Origin: Thiobacillus sp.
GTDB lineage: Bacteria; Pseudomonadota; Gammaproteobacteria; Burkholderiales; Thiobacillaceae
Direction: 5' to 3'
NCBI GenBank assembly: GCA_016124745.1
Contig: WGNC01000025.1
Span: forward strand, 1-64,000
DNA length: 64,000 nucleotides
Part shown: positions 1,879 to 17,188 of the stretch, one piece after another
Numbering within the stretch: the first letter of the stretch is position 1
How the letters are laid out: the number at the start of each line of letters is the position of its first letter
Notes under the pieces: generated by a model
What the model saw: the letters and a program-made list of their open reading frames with translations, nothing else
Told to the model about the DNA's origin: nothing
Database searches by the model: none
Position numbers and translations under genes: made by a program

Positions 1879-1954
1879 TGGCGTCCCCACGGGGATTCGA
1901 ACCCCGGTTACCGCCGTGAAAGGGCGATGTCCTAGGCCTCTAGACGATGGGGAC
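1879..1954 (-). tRNA. tRNA-Glu (anticodon TTC)
   Basis: A 76-base tRNA including an encoded CCA. The acceptor arms GTCCCC/GGGGAC pair, the T-loop reads GGTTCGAATCC, and the anticodon loop CTTTCAC carries TTC. It is the last element of a minus-strand unit with tRNA-Ala and a small membrane protein gene. Confidence 0.97.
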
Positions 1955-2004
1955 CCGGACGACGGTGTGACCCGTCAACATTGCTGCTTCGGCTTGCGCC
2001 GTTG

Positions 2005-2190
2005 CTACTTGTTGCTGGAAAGCTGAGTCAAGGTTACGCCGAGCAGCAGACCGACGAAGCCCAATGGTACCAGCGAGATCCAGACTTCGGCACTCTCGCT
2101 GCCATGCAGCATTTTCCAGAATCCAACAACCAGTCCGACGATGCTCAGTATCAGTCCCAGCCAGGTGGTGGTGACGCCAAGCTTGTGCAT
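2005..2190 (-). CDS. Small two-span membrane protein between two tRNA genes
   Basis: A 61-residue protein with two clear hydrophobic segments (about residues 8-26 and 36-55) joined by a short loop, ending in a polar tail. The ATG at 2190 is preceded by an AGGAAG ribosome-binding site 5 bases upstream, which argues that this short frame is translated. It starts 16 bases after the tRNA-Ala 3' end and stops 50 bases before tRNA-Glu, and the only strong promoter seen lies upstream of tRNA-Ala, so the mRNA is probably cut out of a tRNA precursor. I do not recognise a family and cannot assign a function. Confidence 0.7.
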   Translation of the reverse strand: MHKLGVTTTWLGLILSIVGLVVGFWKMLHGSESAEVWISLVPLGFVGLLLGVTLTQLSSNK

Positions 2191-2206
2191 CGAACTTCCT
2201 GTCAGT

Positions 2207-2282
<76 letters not shown>

Positions 2283-2295
2283 AACGAAGCCGCGC

Positions 2296-2324
2296 ATTCT
2301 ATACATGCCTTTCGTGCTTGTAAA
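2296..2324 (-). promoter_or_regulatory. Sigma70-type promoter for the tRNA-Ala unit
   Basis: Minus strand: TTTACA (2324-2319), 17-bp spacer, TAGAAT (2301-2296), with the tRNA-Ala 5' end 14 bases further on. Both hexamers are close to consensus. Confidence 0.75.
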
Positions 2325-2352
2325 GCCTCTGCATCGACTGCGCCGCCAATAT

Positions 2353-3735
2353 TCAATCGGGAAAAAGCTTGCCGGGGTTGAGCAGTCCGTGCGGATCGAA
2401 TTGCTGTTTGATCGCACGCATGATGTCGAGGGTCGCGGGGTCGATCTCCAGCGGGACAAAGCGGCGCTTTTCGGTGCCGATGCCGTGTTCGCCCGAGAGG
2501 GTGCCGCCGAGTTCCAGGACCCGCCGCATCAGCGCTTCGAGGGCGATATGTGCGCGCGCCATCTCGTCTTCATCGTCGGGGTGCACCATGAGATTGACGT
2601 GCAGGTTGCCGTTGCCGGCGTGGCCGAACGACACCACCGCCAGTCGCTGCGCCGCGGCCGTGTGGTCGATGAAATCGACGAAGTCGGCGAGTTGCGAAAC
2701 CGGCACCACTACGTCCTCGTTGATCTTGAGCGGCGCAATCTGCTTGACCGCCTGCGACAGCGACTTGCGCGCGGTCCACAGCAGGGTGATGTCGTCGCGC
2801 GTGAAGCCGCTGCGCATGTCGAGCAGGCCATCGCCGACGAGGGATTTTTCCAGCGCGGCAATCTGGCGTGGCAGGTCCTGAATGGCGCCGTCGGCTTCGA
2901 CCATCAGCAGTGCGCGGGTGCCGGGCGGCAGATCATTTGCCGCTCCGGTCGGACGGATGGCGTCGATGGCCCGGTGATCCATGAATTCGAGCGCGCAGGG
3001 CGTGACGTCCTGATGCATGACGCGGCTGACGGCGTCGAGTGCGGCACGGTTGCTGGCGAAACACACGCGCAGGGTGGCGACCGCCTGCGGCGCGGGCAAC
3101 AGTTTCAGGGTGGCTTCGGTAATGAGGGCAAGCGTGCCTTCGGAACCGACCAGCAGGCGGGTGAGGTCGTATCCGGTGACGCCCTTGGTGGTGCGGCAGC
3201 CGGTGCGGATTTCCTGCCCGCTGCCGGTGACGCCACGCAGTCCCAGCACGAAATCGCGGGTGACGCCGTATTTGATGGCACGCGGCCCGGCGGCATTCAT
3301 GGCGAGGTTGCCGCCGATGCGGCAATAGGCCCCGCTGCCGGGGTCGGGCGGGTAGAACAGCCCCGCCCCTCGTGCGATGCGGTCGATTTCCTCGGTGACC
3401 ACGCCGGGCTCGACGACGATGAGTCGGTTGTCGGGGTCGAAGTCGAGCACGCGCCGCATGCATTCGAAGCTGACGACGACGGAACCGGGCGAGGGCAGGG
3501 CGCCGCCTACGTTGCCGGAACCGGCACCGCGCGGGGTCAGTCCGATGCGATGTTCGGAGGCAACGCGCACCAGGGCGACCACGTCGTTGTGCGACGTCGG
3601 GAACAGCACGGCGTCGGGCTCGACATGGCGCGGGGTTTCATCCTGGGCGTACAGCGCGCGCGTGGCGGCATCGTCGAAGACGCGCTCCGCCCCGAGGGCG
3701 GAACGGAATGCAGCGAGCGCACGTTCGGACAACAT
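2353..3735 (-). CDS. FAD-linked oxidase, GlcD/D-lactate dehydrogenase type
   Basis: A 460-residue cytoplasmic flavoprotein that probably oxidises a 2-hydroxy acid such as glycolate or D-lactate. The N-terminal FAD-binding PCMH domain carries the RGAGSGNVGGALP pyrophosphate-binding loop (about residues 69-80). The C-terminal domain has FGHAGNGNLHVN and SGEHGIGTEKRRF, both standard for GlcD-type enzymes. No GlcE or GlcF partner lies beside it, so it may work as a single subunit; the exact substrate cannot be read. It is 27 bp downstream of the SseB-like gene on the same strand. Confidence 0.88.
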   Translation of the reverse strand: MLSERALAAFRSALGAERVFDDAATRALYAQDETPRHVEPDAVLFPTSHNDVVALVRVASEHRIGLTPRGAGSGNVGGALPSPGSVVVSFECMRRVLDFDPDNRLIVVEPGVVTEEIDRIARGAGLFYPPDPGSGAYCRIGGNLAMNAAGPRAIKYGVTRDFVLGLRGVTGSGQEIRTGCRTTKGVTGYDLTRLLVGSEGTLALITEATLKLLPAPQAVATLRVCFASNRAALDAVSRVMHQDVTPCALEFMDHRAIDAIRPTGAANDLPPGTRALLMVEADGAIQDLPRQIAALEKSLVGDGLLDMRSGFTRDDITLLWTARKSLSQAVKQIAPLKINEDVVVPVSQLADFVDFIDHTAAAQRLAVVSFGHAGNGNLHVNLMVHPDDEDEMARAHIALEALMRRVLELGGTLSGEHGIGTEKRRFVPLEIDPATLDIMRAIKQQFDPHGLLNPGKLFPD

Positions 3736-3762
3736 GGTGGGCGAGGCAGGCGGACTGATGAC

Positions 3763-4182
3763 TCAGGATGCGCGTTCGGGCGGCAACTGCGCGATCAGTT
3801 GCGCGATCATGTCGGCATCGAAGTCCATGCCGATATCCCAGCCCGGATTGATTGAAATCGGGACACCGCCGCCAATGCGGCGCAGCAGCCAGGAAAATTC
3901 GGTCAGGATGCCGCCCGAATACTCGGGGTAGTGTTCGACGAAGGGCTTGGCCCGCTCGGGACTGGTGAAGATAGCCAGGATGCGCTCGCCGTTTTCGTCC
4001 TCGATGATCATCAATTCGGCCTGGGTCGAACGCTGGAATCCCTGGATGGGATTCTTTTCGTCGCGCACGGGCATGAACAACTGCTGGTCGATCAAATGCA
4101 GGACGAAGGTTTCGGGATCGAGCGTGCCGGCATGCACGGCCGCCAGTTGCTCTTCGAGGGCATTGTGGGGAATGAAATTCAT
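3763..4182 (-). CDS. SseB-family protein
   Basis: A 139-residue soluble protein without signal peptide. It resembles the SseB N-terminal domain: an alpha-helical start, a LFMPV strand, the IIEDENGERILAIFTSPERA block and an acidic C-terminal helix. In enterobacteria SseB enhances serine-sensitive phenotypes; in most bacteria the role is unknown. It precedes the GlcD-like gene and may be cotranscribed with it. Confidence 0.75.
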   Translation of the reverse strand: MNFIPHNALEEQLAAVHAGTLDPETFVLHLIDQQLFMPVRDEKNPIQGFQRSTQAELMIIEDENGERILAIFTSPERAKPFVEHYPEYSGGILTEFSWLLRRIGGGVPISINPGWDIGMDFDADMIAQLIAQLPPERAS

Positions 4183-4326
4183 GATGTCGGGCTCTTGTCT
4201 CGGTCTTCTTCAGTGTGGGGCCCAGTTTAACCGATGGGGCCTGCAGTGGGATGAGGCTGGGGCGGGTGAGGGCGTTCTTGGCGTCCAACCACCTTCAGAT
4301 ATTTCCTGGGGGCTGAAGCAAGGTAG

Positions 4327-4353
4327 CCCTTCGACTGTGCTCAGGACGAACGG
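4327..4353. repeat. REP-like palindromic element, copy 1
   Basis: The string CCTTCGAC..GCTCAGGACGAACGG sits in a 181-bp spacer. Two related copies lie between nrdA and nrdB. The ends (CCGTTCG / CCTTCGA) are partly self-complementary in the style of dispersed extragenic repeats. Confidence 0.6.
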
Positions 4354-4363
4354 ACCAAGCTGC

Positions 4364-4795
4364 TCAGGGTTCCCAGCGTTCAGGGTGCGCCCAGTGTCGC
4401 GCATTCAGCCAGTCCGGCACCGTCTTGTAGGTTTCGAGATCGTAATAATGGATGCGCCTGTCACCCCCTGGGTCGACTGCGGTCTGCATGAAGCCGAGTG
4501 AAAGAAACATGGGCTCGTCGAGGACGCAGTCCGAGGGTACCGCGAGCAGGATGCGCGGCGCAGCATAGAGGCGCGCCTGGCTGATCCGGTGCAGAGCCTG
4601 CCGGGCATTCAGGCCGTTCAGTGCATCGATGCCCAGCGCCAGCGCGCAGGGCGCTTGCGGCAGCATGCCCTGAAATACGATCGGCGTCTGGGGCAAAACG
4701 CTGCCGGCCAGGTCGCGCGCGGTGGCATCCAGGGCGAGCACGCTGGTGGGCTGCAACAGCAGCAGGCGCTCCTGCAGGATGTCGCGCCAGTTCAT
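4364..4795 (-). CDS. Conserved hypothetical protein (DUF6231-like)
   Basis: A 143-residue soluble protein starting at the ATG at 4795. It has alternating hydrophobic strands and helices (SVLALDAT near residue 19, CALALGIDAL near residue 50, RILLAVPSD near residue 80), suggesting a Rossmann-like alpha/beta fold. It may belong to DUF6231, but I am not certain of that. The start lies 4 bp before the stop of the upstream RDD gene on the same strand, so the two are probably translated from one mRNA. No catalytic motif is recognisable. Confidence 0.65.
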   Translation of the reverse strand: MNWRDILQERLLLLQPTSVLALDATARDLAGSVLPQTPIVFQGMLPQAPCALALGIDALNGLNARQALHRISQARLYAAPRILLAVPSDCVLDEPMFLSLGFMQTAVDPGGDRRIHYYDLETYKTVPDWLNARHWAHPERWEP

Positions 4796-4799
4796 TCGC

Positions 4800-5237
4800 T
4801 CAGGCCTTGCGCGGCACGCGTACCAGCCGGGTGCCTGCGATCCGGTCGTGGAGAAACTGCCGGTCGCGGTCGAACAGGGCCCACCAGAAACCGGCTCCTG
4901 CAAGCGCCAGGCCGACCAGCGCGATAACGAATCGCAGCGCAGCCTGTTTCAGGGTCAGGCGGGCGCCACCCCGGCTGATCAGCCGGATGCGCCAGGTCTT
5001 CATGGCCAGTGTTTGCCCGCTGCGCAGCCAGAACGCGCTGAAATAGGCGAACAGAACTGCAAGGATATAGACCTGGAAAAGGTGCCGCTGCCACGGCGCC
5101 TGCAAATCACCAACGACAGGGATGATGAGGAAGGATGCCACGAACACCACAGCGGTCACCAGCAGCAATTCATAGACCATGGCCGCAATGCGGATAAGGA
5201 ATGGCGCAGGGGGAATTACTATTGCGTTGTCTTGCAT
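4800..5237 (-). CDS. RDD-family membrane protein
   Basis: A 145-residue inner-membrane protein with three to four hydrophobic segments. The RDD signature appears as an early PFLIRIAA arginine segment, WLRSGQTLAMKTWRIRLIS in the middle and LFDRDRQFLHDRIAGTRLV near the C-terminus. RDD proteins are poorly characterised and some have been linked to ion transport. The ATG at 5237 is used; a longer frame begins at 5300 but would run into the promoter region of the divergent cluster. Confidence 0.85.
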   Translation of the reverse strand: MQDNAIVIPPAPFLIRIAAMVYELLLVTAVVFVASFLIIPVVGDLQAPWQRHLFQVYILAVLFAYFSAFWLRSGQTLAMKTWRIRLISRGGARLTLKQAALRFVIALVGLALAGAGFWWALFDRDRQFLHDRIAGTRLVRVPRKA

Positions 5238-5317
5238 GGTGGCTCTATATTGCGACTTGGCGCGGCAATTTGCCACAGCGCGCCGAACATAATCAATCAA
5301 AAACAGGAGGGGGCTCG

Positions 5318-5722
5318 ATGCATATCGTAAAGCAGCTCATGGCCATTCCCGGCGTCATCGCCGCCGGCGAATACGCGTATCGCGGCGACCGTTTTTCCTA
5401 CCAGGGGGCTCTGACCGACGAGTTCGCGCGCATGGCGTCGATCCTGTGCCGCGGCAACACGCTGTCGGTCAACATGCAATCCGAGATATTCGATTCCTTT
5501 GCCGAAAACTGCGGTTGCCGTCCGGTGCAGGGCTGGATCGTGCGGGGTGCGCAGGTCACGGTGTGCGCGGTAGGCAATTATTTTGCCTTCATCGAAAACC
5601 GGGAGGAATTGCTGAACGACGTCATGACGATCATGCGTGCCAAGGTAGGCGACATCCAGGACGATCTGCTGGTCAATCTGTATGCCAGGCTCGGTGGCGA
5701 CACCAAGGAAGCCTTGTACTGA
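5318..5722 (+). CDS. DUF2173-like protein, paralogue 1 of 3
   Basis: A 134-residue soluble protein beginning at the ATG at 5318 behind a strong AGGAGG site. The N-terminal block (LMAIPGVIAAGEY, then FSYQG) and the late block GWIVRGAQVTVCAVGN resemble DUF2173, a small family I associate with sulfur-oxidising bacteria. Two further paralogues follow directly. The alternating strand/helix pattern could suit a roadblock/LC7-type fold, but that is inference. It is 20-30 residues longer at the C-terminus than its paralogues. Function unknown. Confidence 0.75.
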   Translation: MHIVKQLMAIPGVIAAGEYAYRGDRFSYQGALTDEFARMASILCRGNTLSVNMQSEIFDSFAENCGCRPVQGWIVRGAQVTVCAVGNYFAFIENREELLNDVMTIMRAKVGDIQDDLLVNLYARLGGDTKEALY

Positions 5723-5751
5723 ATCTTGATATGAACACGGGGGAGACAAAT

Positions 5752-6090
5752 ATGAATCTGGAAAGAATGATGGAGCTGCCGGGTGCGCTGGCCGCGTTTA
5801 CCTACTCCGACAAGGGCGACCTGGAGTCACACGTGCTGCGCGAGGGGACCGAACTGACGAAGCAGGTCCTCGACCTGTTGACGCATTCATGCGTCGCCAA
5901 TCAGGCGATCGCCACCATGGAGGCGCGCGGCTGGGAAGCCGTCACCGGGCAGGGCGGGTTCGAGCCGCTCAAGGGCTTTTCGGTGGTGGGGCTGGAGTGG
6001 TCCGTGGTCGTGAATGGCAACTGCGGAATCGTCGTCAGGAATCGCGACGCTGACTACGAAGCCACCTTCAATGCCTTGCAGGCTGCCTGA
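5752..6090 (+). CDS. DUF2173-like protein, paralogue 2 of 3
   Basis: A 112-residue soluble protein starting at 5752 behind GGGGGAG; an in-frame ATG at 5731 is less well placed. It shares the opening pattern (RMMELPGALAAFTYSDKGDL) and the late core (GFSVVGLEWSVVVNGN) with its neighbours but has lost the TVC(A/S)VGN cysteine. It lies 29 bp after paralogue 1 and 9 bp before paralogue 3, so the three form one operon. Closest in sequence layout to DUF2173. Confidence 0.75.
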   Translation: MNLERMMELPGALAAFTYSDKGDLESHVLREGTELTKQVLDLLTHSCVANQAIATMEARGWEAVTGQGGFEPLKGFSVVGLEWSVVVNGNCGIVVRNRDADYEATFNALQAA

Positions 6091-6099
6091 GGAGCGCGT

Positions 6100-6435
6100 A
6101 TGTCGCTGAGAAAAATACTGGTGCTGGAAGGCGTCACGGCGGTATGCCGTTTTCGTGACGACGGCGTGCTCATGGAGGCAGAAGGCATCCTGCCGCAGGA
6201 CCTGATGGATCGCCTGGCGAAGTTTGCCCAGTGGTATCGCCGCATGGTGTCGAGCAATACCGACCTGCTGTCGCTGTTTTCGCAAATGCGTGGCTGGTCG
6301 CCGTCGCAGGGGTGGGTCGTGCAGGGCGCTGGAATGACGGTGTGCAGCGTGGGGAATATGGTCTGCCTGTTCGACAACGCACAGGGATCGATGAACGAGA
6401 TCATGGATGCGCTGAGGGAAGCGGCGCACGAATAG
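6100..6435 (+). CDS. DUF2173-like protein, paralogue 3 of 3
   Basis: A 111-residue soluble protein with a GAGGAG site ahead of the ATG. It keeps the GWVVQGAGMTVCSVGN core that matches paralogue 1 nearly residue for residue (GWIVRGAQVTVCAVGN), and the final helix with an acidic residue run. The N-terminus is more diverged. Last gene of the three-gene operon; a bulged hairpin follows the stop. Confidence 0.72.
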   Translation: MSLRKILVLEGVTAVCRFRDDGVLMEAEGILPQDLMDRLAKFAQWYRRMVSSNTDLLSLFSQMRGWSPSQGWVVQGAGMTVCSVGNMVCLFDNAQGSMNEIMDALREAAHE

Positions 6436-6446
6436 TCAAACGGGTG

Positions 6447-6486
6447 CGCCCTCCATTCCCGGAAAGCCGGGGGGCGGAACATTTTT
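6447..6486 (+). terminator. Possible terminator after the DUF2173-like operon
   Basis: CGCCC (6447-6451) pairs with GGGCG (6472-6476) around an inner CCCGG-AAAG-CCGGG hairpin, with a bulge between; ATTTTT follows at 6481. The bulge makes this a moderate call. Confidence 0.5.
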
Positions 6487-6903
6487 CTTTGCTGGTCGAG
6501 TTGCCGAATGAACGCACCGGGTGCAATGGGGGCGCAGGCATGGCGGATCGTGCTTCGTCCGACAGGCCGAAATTGAATCCAGGGTGCGCGTCGCCAGGCC
6601 TGGAGGGCTATGGCACCAGATTCTGTGAGTGGAGTCGTCAACCAGCAAATTTAACGGAAGCCCCGGTTTCCCCGTGGGCTGCCAGACTCCAGGCAGATAC
6701 GATCAACGTGATGGCAAGTCCGGGACTAGCCCCGTCTGCTCCGGATAGAACTTGAAACCTCTCCGTCATACCCTCTGTGGCATTTATCGTCATATTCCGC
6801 AAGAAGATTGCCGGGCAGCCGCCTCAGCGCACGATTTCTTGACCGGATCGGGGCAAAACGATTACCCTCACAGGTTCACCAACGAATTGATTTTTACCAG
6901 TTT
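6487..6903 (+). promoter_or_regulatory. Long untranslated leader region of ilvB
   Basis: About 400 bases without a credible gene. It holds at least two hairpins: CTGCC/GGCAG at 6679-6696 and TCCGG/CCGGA at 6719-6745. The stretch GGCAAGTCCGGGACTAGCCCCG recalls part of a cobalamin riboswitch, but the rest of that fold is not seen. No leader peptide rich in Ile, Val or Leu was found. The ilvB start has no clear ribosome-binding site. Confidence 0.35.
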
Positions 6904-8616
6904 ATGGAAGCCACGGGCGCCGAGATCGTCGTACGTTGTCTGGCCGAAGAGGGGGTCGAATTTGTATTCGGCTATCCCGGCGGGGCTGTGCTCAACATCT
7001 ACGACGAAATCTTCAAGCAGGACAAATTCAAGCATGTGCTGGTGCGCCATGAACAGGCGGCCGTCCACGCGGCGGACGCCTATGCGCGCTCCACCGGCCG
7101 CGTCGGGGTGGCGCTGGTCACCTCGGGCCCGGGCGTCACCAATGCGGTGACCGGGATTGCCACCGCCTACATGGATTCCGTCCCGATCGTCGTCGTCACC
7201 GGCCAGGTGCCGACCGCGGCGATCGGGCTGGATGCGTTCCAGGAAGTCGACACCGTGGGCATCACGCGTCCCTGCGTCAAGCACAACTTCCTCGTCAAGG
7301 ACGTGAAGGATCTCGCGGCGACGATGAAAAAGGCTTTCATCATTGCCGCAACCGGACGCCCCGGTCCGGTGGTGGTCGATGTGCCCAAGGATGTGACCTA
7401 TCACACCACCGACTTCGATTATCCGGCGACGATCGAGATGCGCTCATACAACCCCGTGGTCAAGGGCCATACCGGGCAGTTGAAGCGCGCCGTGCAGATG
7501 CTGCTGGAAGCCAAGCGCCCGATGGTCTATGCGGGTGGCGGCGTGGTGCTGGGCGATGCATCGGAGCATTTGATCGAGCTGGCCCGCCTGCTGGGCTTTC
7601 CAGTCACCAACACCCTGATGGGCCTGGGCGGCTATCCCGCCACCGACCGGCAGAACCTCGGCATGCTGGGCATGCACGGGACCTACGAAGCCAACATGGC
7701 GATGCAGCACTGCGACGTGCTGCTGGCCGTCGGCGCGCGTTTCGACGATCGCGTGATCGGCAACCCGGCGCATTTTGCGCGCGAACAACGCCGCATCATC
7801 CATGTCGATGTCGATCCGTCGTCGATCTCCAAGCGCGTCAAGGTCGACGTGCCCATCGTCGGCGACGTGAAGAACGTGCTGGGCGACATGCTGTCGCTGC
7901 TGAAGCAGGCCAAGGAGCGGCCCGATTCGGCCGCGCTGAATGCCTGGTGGACGCAGATCGAATTGTGGCGCTCGAAGAACTGCCTCAATTACAATCGCAA
8001 CAGCCCCATCATCAAGCCGCAATACGTGGTCGAGAAGCTGTGGGAGGTCACCCAGGGCGATGCCTATGTGACGTCAGATGTGGGACAGCACCAGATGTGG
8101 GCGGCGCAATACTACAAGTTCGACAAGCCGCGCCGCTGGATCAACTCCGGCGGCCTCGGCACCATGGGCGTCGGCCTGCCGTATGCCATGGGCGTGCAGC
8201 TTGCCTTCCCGGATGCGCAGGTCGCCTGCATCACGGGCGAATCGAGCATCCAGATGTGCATCCAGGAACTGTCGACCTGCAAGCAGTACCGCATCCCGGT
8301 CAAGGTCATCACGCTCAACAACCGCTACATGGGCATGGTGCGGCAGTGGCAGGAGTTCTTCTACGGCAGCCGCTATGCCGAGTCCTACATGGAATCGCTG
8401 CCCGACTTCGTGAAGCTCGCCGAGTCCTACGGCCACATCGGCATGCGCATCGACAAGCCGGAAGACGTCGAGGCCGCGCTGAAGGAAGCGTTCTCGCCCG
8501 CGCTGAAGGAACGCCTGGTGTTCATGGACTTCCAGACCGACCAGACCGAGAACGTCTTCCCCATGGTCGAAGGCGGCAAGGGACTGTCCGAAATGATTCT
8601 GGCGGAGGAGCTCTGA
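6904..8616 (+). CDS. ilvB: Acetolactate synthase, large subunit
   Basis: A 570-residue TPP enzyme that condenses two pyruvates, or pyruvate with 2-oxobutyrate, in the first common step of Val, Leu and Ile synthesis. Order: N-terminal PYR domain with GYPGGAVLNIYDE and the catalytic Glu in VRHEQAAVHAADAYA; central FAD domain; C-terminal PP domain. The TPP motif, usually GDG-S, reads G-E-S-S followed by IQMCIQEL and then NN at the normal distance. The ATG at 6904 gives the family length; upstream in-frame starts would add an unrelated leader. The stop is 1 base before the small-subunit ATG. Confidence 0.95.
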   Translation: MEATGAEIVVRCLAEEGVEFVFGYPGGAVLNIYDEIFKQDKFKHVLVRHEQAAVHAADAYARSTGRVGVALVTSGPGVTNAVTGIATAYMDSVPIVVVTGQVPTAAIGLDAFQEVDTVGITRPCVKHNFLVKDVKDLAATMKKAFIIAATGRPGPVVVDVPKDVTYHTTDFDYPATIEMRSYNPVVKGHTGQLKRAVQMLLEAKRPMVYAGGGVVLGDASEHLIELARLLGFPVTNTLMGLGGYPATDRQNLGMLGMHGTYEANMAMQHCDVLLAVGARFDDRVIGNPAHFAREQRRIIHVDVDPSSISKRVKVDVPIVGDVKNVLGDMLSLLKQAKERPDSAALNAWWTQIELWRSKNCLNYNRNSPIIKPQYVVEKLWEVTQGDAYVTSDVGQHQMWAAQYYKFDKPRRWINSGGLGTMGVGLPYAMGVQLAFPDAQVACITGESSIQMCIQELSTCKQYRIPVKVITLNNRYMGMVRQWQEFFYGSRYAESYMESLPDFVKLAESYGHIGMRIDKPEDVEAALKEAFSPALKERLVFMDFQTDQTENVFPMVEGGKGLSEMILAEEL

Positions 8617-13663: not shown

Positions 13664-16600
13664 ATGAACAGATTCAATCATTCGGGTCCGGGCCCGCTCG
13701 ATGAGGCACAGCGTGAACAGGTCAACCTGCGTCTGTACATCAACCTCAAGCTGGCATCATCCGGCCAGCCTCCCGTGCGCGGCCAGGAGAGCGACGAGTT
13801 CATGGAAGTGGCGCATGACCTGCTCATGGCCTACCGGGCCAAGAACTGGCTGCTGTCCGATTTTCTGAGTCCGCCCGACCGGCGCATTCAGCAATTCCTC
13901 GAACGCTACCTGGCGGGTGTGGACGAGGTGCCGCATCTGCCCGGCCAGACATTCATCCTCGACCATGAGGGACTCGCGCGCGAGTTGTCGCTGCCGGTCG
14001 ATTCGGACGTGTTCCGCTCGGACATCGTTTCCAGCTACCGTGTACGCCAGGGCGTACTGCACAACCCGGCCAGCGACCGCCGCACCACCAAGGGCCTGTT
14101 CCACATCGCCGAAGGCGGCCTGCCCATTCCCGGCGACAAGAAAGCCGTCCCGCGCGAGGTGTTCGCGCGCATGCTCAAGCATGCCTTCAACCCGCCGCAG
14201 GACCTGCTCGCGCTGCCGTACACCATCAACCAGCCCGATCCCGCACGCATGTTCGTCTCGCTGCTGTTGCGTCCGGTCATCTGCCCGGCCATTCCCGGCA
14301 TGGCGCCGGAGAAGAGCATGGAGATCCGCTTCTTCGCACCCGGCAACCTGGTCAGCAATCTGGATTTCGTCGAGAGCATCTTCGGCAACGGCGGCAATCC
14401 CCTGATGCCGGAGCATGACGCTGCCCTCGACGTCGAACACTGGAGCGGACACACCGGCTGCGTGGTGCTGGCGCCGCATCTGACCCGCCTCACCAAGCGC
14501 GAACTGGGCCTGCCGCAATGGGATGCGGCGAACGAGCGCCAGCGCCGCGAGGGCATGTGCTGGAAACAGCCGGACGAACGCTACAACGACGGCCAGGCCT
14601 TCAAGCTCACCGCGCGCGATGCCAGCGGCGTCATGGTCACCATCCTGGCCGACAACTACTTCGGCTACTGCAAGAAAGAGGTCAAGACCCAGATCAGCTT
14701 CGCCGCCAATCTCTACGGCCTGGCCGAGGAAGAGCATGCCGGCGGCGCGTTGCTGTTCCAGTGCCGCAACCATGGCGAGGAATACGGCGTCGACAGCGTC
14801 ACGCGGGAGCCGGGGTATTCCTTCCACGACATGGTGGCGCGCTACGGTCAGTTCATGCGCGTCATGCCCGAGGGTCATGCCGTCGACGTAAATTATCCGG
14901 ACATCGTCTACGTGCCGCAGGCGGTGCGCTTCGACCTCAATGCACAGAGCATCAGCTGGGAACACGATCACCGGACTCATCGTATCCGCCTGATGCCGGG
15001 CAAGATCTACATGCAGCCCAACGGCTACAAGCTTGAAATGCGCCGGCATCCGGGCGCGCCATCGTGGCGCCTGATCGGCATCGAACCGGAGGGCACCTTC
15101 TGCCACAAGCCGTGCACGGTGTCCGGCGGCGGCAAGTCGGAGATTTCCAAGTCGCTCGAGGATGCCGTGCTCTACGGGCCCTTGTTCATCGACGACCTGG
15201 AGCGCGACCTCGCCTGGGTGCGGAGCATATTCGAAGCCGATTACAGCACGCGTTTCAGGCCTGGCTTCGAGCTCGAGGATCGCGACGCTGCGCGCAAGCC
15301 ATTGAGCATGGAACGCAGTCTCGGCTCGGTGATCAAGTTGCTGACGCCCTCGTCGAGCTACACGGACGAATACAACGCCTGGCTCGACAGCATCCCGCCG
15401 CGCATCCTGGCGCTGGTGTTCCTGATCAAGCGTTTCTATCGCGCGGAGTGGATCGGGCGTTGGGATGAGGAACTCACGGTCGACGTGGTGGACGGCGCGC
15501 CGGGACACGAACTGAAAATGTTCGGCAGGCGCATCATCGCGAGCTACCTGCGGGTGGGATTCGATGACGACGAGCAGTGGCGGACCTTCAAGCTGCGCCA
15601 GGATTTTATCCCCGCCGAGAAGGTGCAGATGGAAGACGACATCACCGTGTCGGTGGTCGCGCCCGTGGCCGGGACGACCCACTGCAAGCCGGGACTGGGG
15701 CAGCCGGGCAGCGTCAAGCTGACGCACAATTGTGAAATGCGCCTGTTTCAGCGCCCCGACGATGCAGTCACGCCGGGCTACGACAAGCAGGCCGAGGCCG
15801 ACATGGCCCTGCCCGACAACTTCATTTCGAACTTCGAACCGCTGACCGGCGCCGCGCTTGCCGCCGAAGTCGAGGATGTCTTGAGTCTGTACGGCTATAC
15901 GCCGCCGATGCGTGACCTGCTGCTGGAGGCGGCGCGCACGGAGCAGATCGTCGTTTCCTCCGCGCGTCCGCGACTGGTCGACGGCAAGCCGTCGAAGAAC
16001 CCGCGCTATCTGCAATTGCGTCCAGACATCGCCAACCCGATCCGCAAATATGCGGCCGAAATGGGCATGCGCTTCCACCGCAAGCTGGCTGCCGATGCCA
16101 CGGTGTGCGTGAGCGTCGACGCCGTCTTGTCCGGGCGCCGCAACAATCCGCCGGGCAAGGACATCCGGCCGCTGGCGGTTTACAACCCGCTGCATTATCA
16201 GGCACTGCCGGAACTGTTCATGGACTACATCTGTTCCCTGACGGGAACCTCGCCGTCCACCACCGGTGCGGGATCGGAAGGCGCGCTCACCAAGGGACCG
16301 TTCAATGCGCTGCGGCCCACGACCGATCTCAACAACGCGCTGGTCTCGATGATACTCACCGGGTACGACGGCTTCTCGACGCCCGCCGGGCATATCGGGT
16401 CGCAGCTGCGCGTGGACCACGACATCAGCCTGCTGATGCCGGAAATCTGGGCCCGGATGCAGCGCGAGCATCGCGAGGCATCCTGGCTCATCGGGCAGGG
16501 CTACATGGAAGCGCTGGAGGATTTCGACTTCGAGGGCAGGCGCGTGCTCGCCAGCCGGCTCGGCTACCGCATCAACGAGCGTTTCGTCGCCCACTACATG

Positions 16601-17188
16601 GGCAAGATCTTCGACAACCCGCGTGCGGTCTTCACCGAGGCCATCCTCAAGCCGGAAACCCAGGACCTGGCGGTCTTCGCCGACGGCGTTCACAACATCG
16701 TCGAGGCCCAGGAGCGCGTGGCAAGGCGCTATTTCGAGGACGGCAGCATCGAAGAGGCCTGCCCGCCGTTGAAGGTGCTGCTCGCCATCATGGCTGATGG
16801 CCATTACCAGGGCCTGGATGTGCATGCGCCGGAGATCCGTGCCATGTTCACGCGCGAGGCCCTGCTCGAATCCGACTGGTATCGGCAGCGCCTGCAGGTC
16901 AAGCGCGAGCGCGATATCGCGCTATGGACGCGCAACCTCGACGAACTCACGCGCTTCGCGCATAACCCGCGCAACGTCGACGAGTCGCGTCGCCTCGAAC
17001 TGGACGCGCGCATCGCCTATGTCCAGGCGCGGCTCGACGATCTGAACGATCCCGAGTCCTGGCGCCTGTTTGTCGGAACCATTGGCGCCGACCCGATGGC
17101 ACCGATCGAGGATTCCGGCATCGGTATCGGGGACGTACCCGCTACCGGCGATTGCCGGGAACGTGAGACCGCGACGGCAATGGGTTGA
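13664..17188 (+). CDS. Candidate PPi-type phosphoenolpyruvate carboxykinase
   Basis: A large soluble protein of 1174 residues without signal peptide. Its length and several blocks match my recollection of the pyrophosphate-dependent PEP carboxykinase family known from Propionibacterium and Entamoeba: TCHKP-like FCHKPCTVSGGGKSEISKS (residues about 480-500), SVIKLLTPSSSYTDEYNAWL, LFQRPDDAVTPGYDKQAE and the TGAGSEGALTKGPFNAL block (about residue 865). The GGGKSE stretch resembles a kinase-1a loop. Such enzymes interconvert oxaloacetate plus PPi with PEP, CO2 and phosphate. It stands alone, with long non-coding spacers on both sides. The family call rests on recalled motifs, not an alignment. Confidence 0.7.
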   Translation: MNRFNHSGPGPLDEAQREQVNLRLYINLKLASSGQPPVRGQESDEFMEVAHDLLMAYRAKNWLLSDFLSPPDRRIQQFLERYLAGVDEVPHLPGQTFILDHEGLARELSLPVDSDVFRSDIVSSYRVRQGVLHNPASDRRTTKGLFHIAEGGLPIPGDKKAVPREVFARMLKHAFNPPQDLLALPYTINQPDPARMFVSLLLRPVICPAIPGMAPEKSMEIRFFAPGNLVSNLDFVESIFGNGGNPLMPEHDAALDVEHWSGHTGCVVLAPHLTRLTKRELGLPQWDAANERQRREGMCWKQPDERYNDGQAFKLTARDASGVMVTILADNYFGYCKKEVKTQISFAANLYGLAEEEHAGGALLFQCRNHGEEYGVDSVTREPGYSFHDMVARYGQFMRVMPEGHAVDVNYPDIVYVPQAVRFDLNAQSISWEHDHRTHRIRLMPGKIYMQPNGYKLEMRRHPGAPSWRLIGIEPEGTFCHKPCTVSGGGKSEISKSLEDAVLYGPLFIDDLERDLAWVRSIFEADYSTRFRPGFELEDRDAARKPLSMERSLGSVIKLLTPSSSYTDEYNAWLDSIPPRILALVFLIKRFYRAEWIGRWDEELTVDVVDGAPGHELKMFGRRIIASYLRVGFDDDEQWRTFKLRQDFIPAEKVQMEDDITVSVVAPVAGTTHCKPGLGQPGSVKLTHNCEMRLFQRPDDAVTPGYDKQAEADMALPDNFISNFEPLTGAALAAEVEDVLSLYGYTPPMRDLLLEAARTEQIVVSSARPRLVDGKPSKNPRYLQLRPDIANPIRKYAAEMGMRFHRKLAADATVCVSVDAVLSGRRNNPPGKDIRPLAVYNPLHYQALPELFMDYICSLTGTSPSTTGAGSEGALTKGPFNALRPTTDLNNALVSMILTGYDGFSTPAGHIGSQLRVDHDISLLMPEIWARMQREHREASWLIGQGYMEALEDFDFEGRRVLASRLGYRINERFVAHYMGKIFDNPRAVFTEAILKPETQDLAVFADGVHNIVEAQERVARRYFEDGSIEEACPPLKVLLAIMADGHYQGLDVHAPEIRAMFTREALLESDWYRQRLQVKRERDIALWTRNLDELTRFAHNPRNVDESRRLELDARIAYVQARLDDLNDPESWRLFVGTIGADPMAPIEDSGIGIGDVPATGDCRERETATAMG

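Follow-up and report, generated by a model that had tools for sequence, protein, structure and literature searches.

Why should a single operon hold three versions of one small protein? The window analysed here, a 64,000-nucleotide stretch of a Thiobacillus sp. contig, poses this question through three tandem genes of the Pfam family DUF2173 (Table 1). In order to answer it, the family membership of the three proteins, their relationships across genomes, their predicted folds and the company that they keep were examined. The explanation that we favour, to which we give a probability of roughly 0.55, is that the operon encodes three obligately co-inherited and functionally distinct subunits of Roadblock/LC7 fold, which would form a putative cytoplasmic hetero-oligomer with a role as scaffold or sensor in sulfur lithotrophy.

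The DUF2173 triad and its surroundings

All three open reading frames score far above the PF09941 family cut-off of 26.1 bits (126, 112.9 and 116 bits for copies 1, 2 and 3, respectively), which bears out the three tandem DUF2173-like genes proposed in an initial annotation of this DNA. The NCBIfam profiles gave no meaningful match for any of the three window proteins, and a search of viral contigs with copy 3 returned no relative. Pairwise identities among the three copies are 25.0, 24.3 and 23.1%. The motif sequences that had been quoted (GWIVRGAQVTVCAVGN in copy 1, GWVVQGAGMTVCSVGN in copy 3 and GFSVVGLEWSVVVNGN in copy 2), a spacing of 9–29 bp and a ribosome-binding site (RBS) for each gene are all as read in the sequence: the gap is 29 bp between genes 1 and 2 and 9 bp between genes 2 and 3, and a purine-rich, RBS-like stretch lies ahead of every ATG.

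Table 1 Features of the window discussed in the text
Feature	Position	Strand	Remarks
DUF6231-family protein gene	4364..4795	-	adjoins RDD gene
RDD-family membrane protein gene	4800..5237	-	PF06271 E 4.1e-20; divergent from triad
Divergent intergenic region, RDD gene to triad	5238..5317		80 bp; RBS-like CAGGAGGGGG ahead of gene 1
Triad gene 1	5318..5722	+	DUF2173, 134 aa; PF09941 E 9.3e-37; position-1 orthologous group
Triad gene 2	5752..6090	+	DUF2173, 112 aa; PF09941 E 1.1e-32; position-2 orthologous group
Triad gene 3	6100..6435	+	DUF2173, 111 aa; PF09941 E 1.2e-33; position-3 orthologous group
Gene for 1174-aa protein	13664..17188	+	no Pfam or NCBIfam match at E ≤ 0.001

The intergenic region upstream of the triad is partially conserved in an alignment of seven genomes of the genus, the conserved block taking in the first codons of the divergent RDD gene, whose start codon was picked by eye at MQDNAI. 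A scan of positions 5000–6950 found neither a sigma-70 promoter nor a terminator consensus. The RDD gene is a frequent syntenic neighbour of the triad, lying outside the triad operon, and a relative of the adjoining DUF6231-family gene is present in seven triad loci, that of the window included. Elsewhere in the window, the 1174-aa protein matches the solved PPi-dependent PEP carboxykinases 6k31 and 8e1u over nearly its whole length.

Distribution of the triad

DUF2173 was found in 46 genomes, the window's own included, of a class sample of 369 genomes that had been drawn evenly, and loci were retrieved from all 45 of the others. Three tandem same-strand copies are present in 39 of these, among them one genome with two such sets (G264) and one in which the first copy is cut by a contig end (G597); a further genome, G431, has two copies plus a third that runs off the contig end. 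The triad is thus found in 40 of the 45, two of which (G431 and G597) touch a contig end, and this near-obligate co-occurrence speaks against the pattern that the initial annotation had named as contrary to its reading, namely single copies with no conserved neighbourhood. The remaining five genomes hold one pair and four single copies, whose proteins fall outside the three groups described below and do not represent partial triads.

In a sample of 100 genomes from the window's own family, 50 were DUF2173-positive and 39 of these carry exactly three or six copies. The exceptions have 5, 5, 7, 7, 4 and 2 copies, together with five genomes that have 1; genomes with 1, 4 or 7 copies lie mostly outside the set of loci that was assigned to groups. 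Six copies occur in 13 of the 39, and in many genomes of the window's genus a further triad lies at another site. Ten loci of this second type, all from that genus, hold all three genes in the order 1-2-3. In two genomes of one genus (G033 and G078) gene 1 lies on a different contig from genes 2 and 3, and all three are retained. A phylum-wide sample of 200 genomes contained DUF2173 only in the window's own genome, a frequency that is not comparable with that of the class sample since the two were apparently drawn differently.

Taken over all retrieved loci there were 82 triads, reduced to 77 distinct ones (40 from the class sample and 37 others) by removal of five duplicates, and 31 proteins from non-triad arrangements were tallied separately. 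Across the 77, the gap between genes 2 and 3 has a median of 9 bp, and the two genes overlap in 17.

Three orthologous groups in a fixed order

A FastTree phylogeny of 277 proteins placed 82 first, 82 second and 82 third genes in separate groups with support values of 69, 99 and 96, and an IQ-TREE analysis of 92 rows gave 88/55, 99/95 and 100/99 for groups 1, 2 and 3 (for the latter tree, and for the residue counts given here, the proteins were trimmed to 125 residues). Group 1 is the least firmly supported, with only moderate tree support. Profiles built from the 40 class-sample triads put each of the 111 genes from the remaining 37 triads at the right position, and the reverse test was correct for 120 of 120, amounting to 231 of 231 genes in both directions; because these cross-group profiles place every gene correctly, the order 1-2-3 is never scrambled. 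Local tandem duplication was considered as the origin of the operon and is ruled out, each position being its own orthologous group across genomes. The window genes represent three ancient, distinct forms of a single small protein. As the three orthologous groups stay together in fixed order, the sub-functionalised set that had been suggested from the window is supported. Our literature searches turned up no description of such a division of DUF2173, with its three orthologous groups arranged in an invariant three-gene operon.

The initial annotation had also called copy 2 diverged, which is misleading. Copy 2 belongs to an orthologous group of its own, with F rather than W at the motif position in 73 of 77 triads, and it varies least from genome to genome: over four subsets, each of 34 to 40 triads, the mean distance was 0.58–0.60 for copy 2, 0.67–0.69 for copy 1 and 0.70–0.72 for copy 3. 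Copy 2 is therefore the slowest-evolving and best conserved of the three, and is no decayed copy. Mirror-tree correlations among the three genes were high, at 0.87–0.90 over 76 triads and 0.72–0.87 in control subsets (L185, where gene 1 is truncated, was excluded from both the distance and the mirror-tree comparison). As they overlap with the correlations of the triad genes with the unrelated lptF/lptG (0.72–0.88), the mirror tree shows nothing beyond shared descent, and co-evolution was dropped as a line of support.

Proteins that are 23–25% identical, in groups that each have their own invariant residues, might also be three separate homodimeric regulators, each with its own target, sharing one operon merely for co-expression; the Roadblock proteins MglB and MglC are each described as forming homodimers (PMC7949163). 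We consider such an arrangement unlikely, because modules that work independently should drop out one at a time, whereas all three members are present in 40 of 40 triad-bearing class-sample genomes (two touching contig ends) and full sets are kept both in the split operons of G033 and G078 and in the ten second-type triads. The simplest explanation for three genes that stay and move together would be a hetero-oligomer, as in the reading that we favour.

Predicted Roadblock/LC7 fold

AlphaFold models were obtained for copy 1 (mean pLDDT 87.1, pTM 0.78, from an 80-sequence alignment) and copy 2 (mean pLDDT 95.7, pTM 0.87, from a 61-sequence alignment). Both have the order alpha-beta-beta-alpha-beta-beta-beta-alpha, and gene 1 encodes in addition a C-terminal extension of about 24 residues that is modelled with low confidence. 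The closest structural match was 3kye_C, a Roadblock domain from Streptomyces (Z 13.0 over 102 residues at 2.1 Å for copy 1 and Z 13.4 over 100 residues at 2.0 Å for copy 2). Archaeal Roadblocks, MP1-p14/Ragulator and MglB came next, the MP1-p14 chains with Z of 11–13, and every structural match listed is either a Roadblock protein or a relative that has a Roadblock, longin or profilin-like domain. Identities in the structural alignments are 8–19%. A Foldseek search with copy 1 gave a modest best E of 9.2e-4, with one match at E ≤ 0.001, and the matches shown are Roadblock proteins or complexes of which these form part.

Sequence profiles point weakly the same way. All 80 aligned DUF2173 proteins match PF09941 at E ≤ 10, and weak matches to Robl_LC7 (PF03259) and to the LAMTOR5 profile appear in seven (best E 0.0034) and three of them, respectively. 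The Robl_LC7 profile had no match among the three window proteins at E ≤ 1, nor in copy 1 at E ≤ 10, and a sequence-profile search of solved structures returned only two chance-level matches. On the strength of the models, copies 1 and 2 have a predicted Roadblock/LC7 fold, and copy 3 is assigned to it via its DUF2173 membership.

Genomic neighbourhood and sulfur-oxidation genes

The triad has no constant operon partner across the loci compared, and no sulfur genes were recognised by eye beside it in the listed loci. An lptF, lptG or RDD gene is found in the retrieved flank of at least 47 of the 77 distinct triads (24 of 40 in the class sample and 23 of 37 others), this being a lower bound because clustering missed one locus, L036, that sits at the same site. 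None of the three was found at the other 30, which include the ten second-type triads and nine with a flank of less than 3 kb. Three triads (L140, L142 and L160) adjoin cbb3-oxidase-like genes and maturation factors, and at L170 two cbb3-oxidase maturation-factor-like genes lie upstream of the triad; these neighbours were named by eye.

Association with sulfur metabolism was assessed by gene content, with soxB (E ≤ 1e-100) and dsrA (E ≤ 1e-60) as markers, and by Fisher tests in which relatedness was handled only by one-genome-per-family sampling. Within the class sample, soxB or dsrA is present in 45 of 46 DUF2173 genomes against 117 of 323 without DUF2173 (p 5e-17), so that the family is nearly restricted to sox/dsr genomes; a single DUF2173-positive genome, G546, lacks both genes. 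With one genome per family, the counts become 19 of 19 with DUF2173 and 52 of 138 without (p 6e-8). DUF2173 is absent, however, from 117 of the 162 soxB/dsrA genomes of the class sample. In the family sample soxB is above the cut-off in 88 of 100 genomes and dsrA in 82 of 100, while half of the sample lacks DUF2173. The sulfur link of DUF2173 is therefore supported by gene content and is not universal: the connection drawn in the initial annotation stands for the class sample, but within the window's family soxB and dsrA do not separate genomes with DUF2173 from those without.

Candidate traits that might account for the presence of DUF2173 were also considered and set aside. Both soxB and dsrA occur in genera of the window's family without DUF2173 and were ruled out as the separating trait there, and among soxB-positive genomes dsrA showed no association with DUF2173 (31 of 43 against 74 of 107, p 0.84). 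Autotrophy fared no better, RuBisCO being present in 18 of 19 DUF2173 families and in 43 of the 52 sulfur oxidisers that lack DUF2173. Some genomes of the window's family, G192 among them, contain more than one full-length dsrA match; in G192, a single-contig genome, there are three. Outside these samples, the control genome of Methanosarcina acetivorans, which is not known to be a sulfur oxidiser, carries DUF2173. Literature searches on roadblock/LC7 with Thiobacillus or sulfur oxidation gave nothing relevant by title, others led to general Roadblock/MglB papers, and no paper was found on Thiobacillus denitrificans expression or under COG4831, which we take to be the COG number of DUF2173.

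The triad might instead be a passive hitch-hiker beside housekeeping genes (lptFG-RDD, ilvBHC, pan/pcn), inherited vertically in lineages that contain sulfur oxidisers, as the frequent lptF, lptG or RDD neighbours and the way in which triad distances track lptF/lptG would allow. We regard this as quite improbable: some of the 30 triads away from these genes lie at different sites, for example beside the cbb3-oxidase-like genes, and with one genome per family soxB or dsrA is present in every DUF2173 family, against 52 of 138 families without it.

Search for a partner GTPase, and a helix-2 cysteine

Multi-paralogue Roadblock sets are familiar mainly from eukaryotes and gliding bacteria, where they act as scaffolds linked to GTPases. 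A further explanation for the triad would be a group of MglB-like regulators, working as GAP/GEF dimers on a Ras-like GTPase whose gene lies elsewhere, with a role in polarity, motility or attachment to solid sulfur. Copy 2 does have the MglB fold (Z 12.9 and 18% identity to Thermus MglB, 1j3w_C), and MglB is reported to bind its paralogue MglC (PMC7949163). By eye, however, no MglA/Ras-like GTPase gene was recognised beside the window triad or in the listed triad neighbourhoods; GTPase genes of other types do lie close to individual loci, for example a SelB-like one close to L094. The Arf-type profile PF00025 at E ≤ 1e-8 matched in just 1 of 20 genomes (the window's and those of 19 DUF2173 families) and in 6 of the 52 sulfur oxidisers that lack DUF2173, a search of doubtful sensitivity because the Thermus control was silent at this threshold and positive at 1e-3. 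At the same threshold, and with the same doubt about sensitivity, no stand-alone PF00025 GTPase was found in the window's genome, and a 165-aa ORF of G375 fell just short of it at 1.7e-8. When the threshold was relaxed to E ≤ 1e-3, the only match in the window's genome lay within a 944-aa ORF, as would be expected for IF-2. MglB-like regulation of this kind appears doubtful to us. It overlaps with the preferred explanation because such regulators could also be heteromers, and the odds that we attach to the rival explanations likewise overlap with that of the preferred one, are not exclusive and have a sum that differs from one.

A cysteine on predicted helix 2 is found in gene 1 of 76 of 77 triads, in gene 2 of 73 and in gene 3 of 14, and in 17 of 18 DUF2173 proteins from pairs or single copies. 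The corresponding position of gene 3 is Ala in 62 of 77 triads, and gene 3 of the window is without the family's usual Cys. Among third genes, the Cys is present in all ten second-type triads (L091 and L094–L102), most of the first type having Ala, and beyond these only in L142, L153, L160 and L166. Speculatively, the near-invariant helix-2 Cys of subunits 1 and 2 could be a redox or sulfane-sulfur switch. It is conceivable, if a long shot, that the triad is a bacterial counterpart of Ragulator, in which an obligate three-Roadblock complex without a Ras-like GTPase would use the cysteines of its first two subunits to sense sulfane sulfur or redox state, and would govern sulfur lithotrophy across many proteobacteria that oxidise sulfur.

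A second DUF2173 arrangement

Five DUF2173 genes are present in the genome of the window, the triplet and a pair on another contig (L029, contig C41:92000–110000, with the two-gene cluster at 7912–8580 of this segment). Upstream of the pair, at 1896–7844, lie genes for a multihaem-type cytochrome, a DmsB-like FeS subunit, a TorD-like chaperone and a 4Fe-4S protein, together with a Tat-signal molybdopterin oxidoreductase of DmsA/YnfE type that scores under the cut-off of that model; an SCP2-domain gene follows the pair. An SCP2-like gene adjoins DUF2173 pairs in six of six pair loci (L032, L033, L103, L109, L148 and L029), and a sigma-54 activator-like gene lies beside the pair in five of the six. 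These neighbours were named with Pfam in the case of SCP2 on L032 and L029 and of the activator on L032, and by clustering or by eye for the rest. The pairs are perhaps a second conserved DUF2173 module, controlled by sigma-54.

Proposed role of the triad and comparison with known systems

Roadblock proteins dimerise via strand pairing and helix-2 contacts, and paralogous Roadblocks are described as binding one another, MglB with MglC and LAMTOR2-3 with LAMTOR4-5 (PMC7949163). By the explanation that we favour, the three subunits of the triad would most likely come together as a single cytoplasmic hetero-oligomer by way of these usual interfaces, with pairing of central strands and packing of helix 2 as in Ragulator subunits and MglB-MglC, and the complex would probably serve as a scaffold or sensor during sulfur lithotrophy. 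The heteromer, its cytoplasmic location and its sulfur role are the parts of this explanation that we infer. What had been three anonymous DUF genes can nonetheless be described as a single conserved module, to which a predicted fold, a set gene order and an association with a metabolism can be assigned. A three-subunit Roadblock set tied to sulfur-oxidation genes with no visible GTPase would be a new use of this fold, and would be a candidate regulator or scaffold that has been missing from a metabolism of global importance.

With respect to known systems, the triad is a new arrangement of a known fold. The Pfam entry to which all three proteins belong, DUF2173 (PF09941), has no function in its title. 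MglB and MglC of the MglA polarity system have the same predicted fold and topology as copies 1 and 2 and are likewise paralogous Roadblocks that bind one another (PMC7949163), but that system comprises two paralogues, whereas the triad has three and no MglA-like gene was recognised adjacent to it. The Ragulator/LAMTOR complex, with its MP1-p14 and LAMTOR4-5 heterodimers, resembles the triad in having several different Roadblock subunits. It is, however, eukaryotic and about 10% identical to the triad proteins, and no counterpart of its Rag-type GTPases or of a p18-like anchor was noticed. Lastly, the only paper that we found to name DUF2173 concerns Sulfolobaceae that oxidise sulfur strongly. 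The DUF2173 protein described there is, unlike the triad proteins, a membrane protein that has several transmembrane segments, and a single such gene is mentioned, as opposed to a triad (PMC11323534). It nevertheless belongs to the same Pfam family and is strongly induced by elemental sulfur, on which the DUF2173-domain gene was up 99- and 32-fold in two Sulfolobaceae (PMC11323534).
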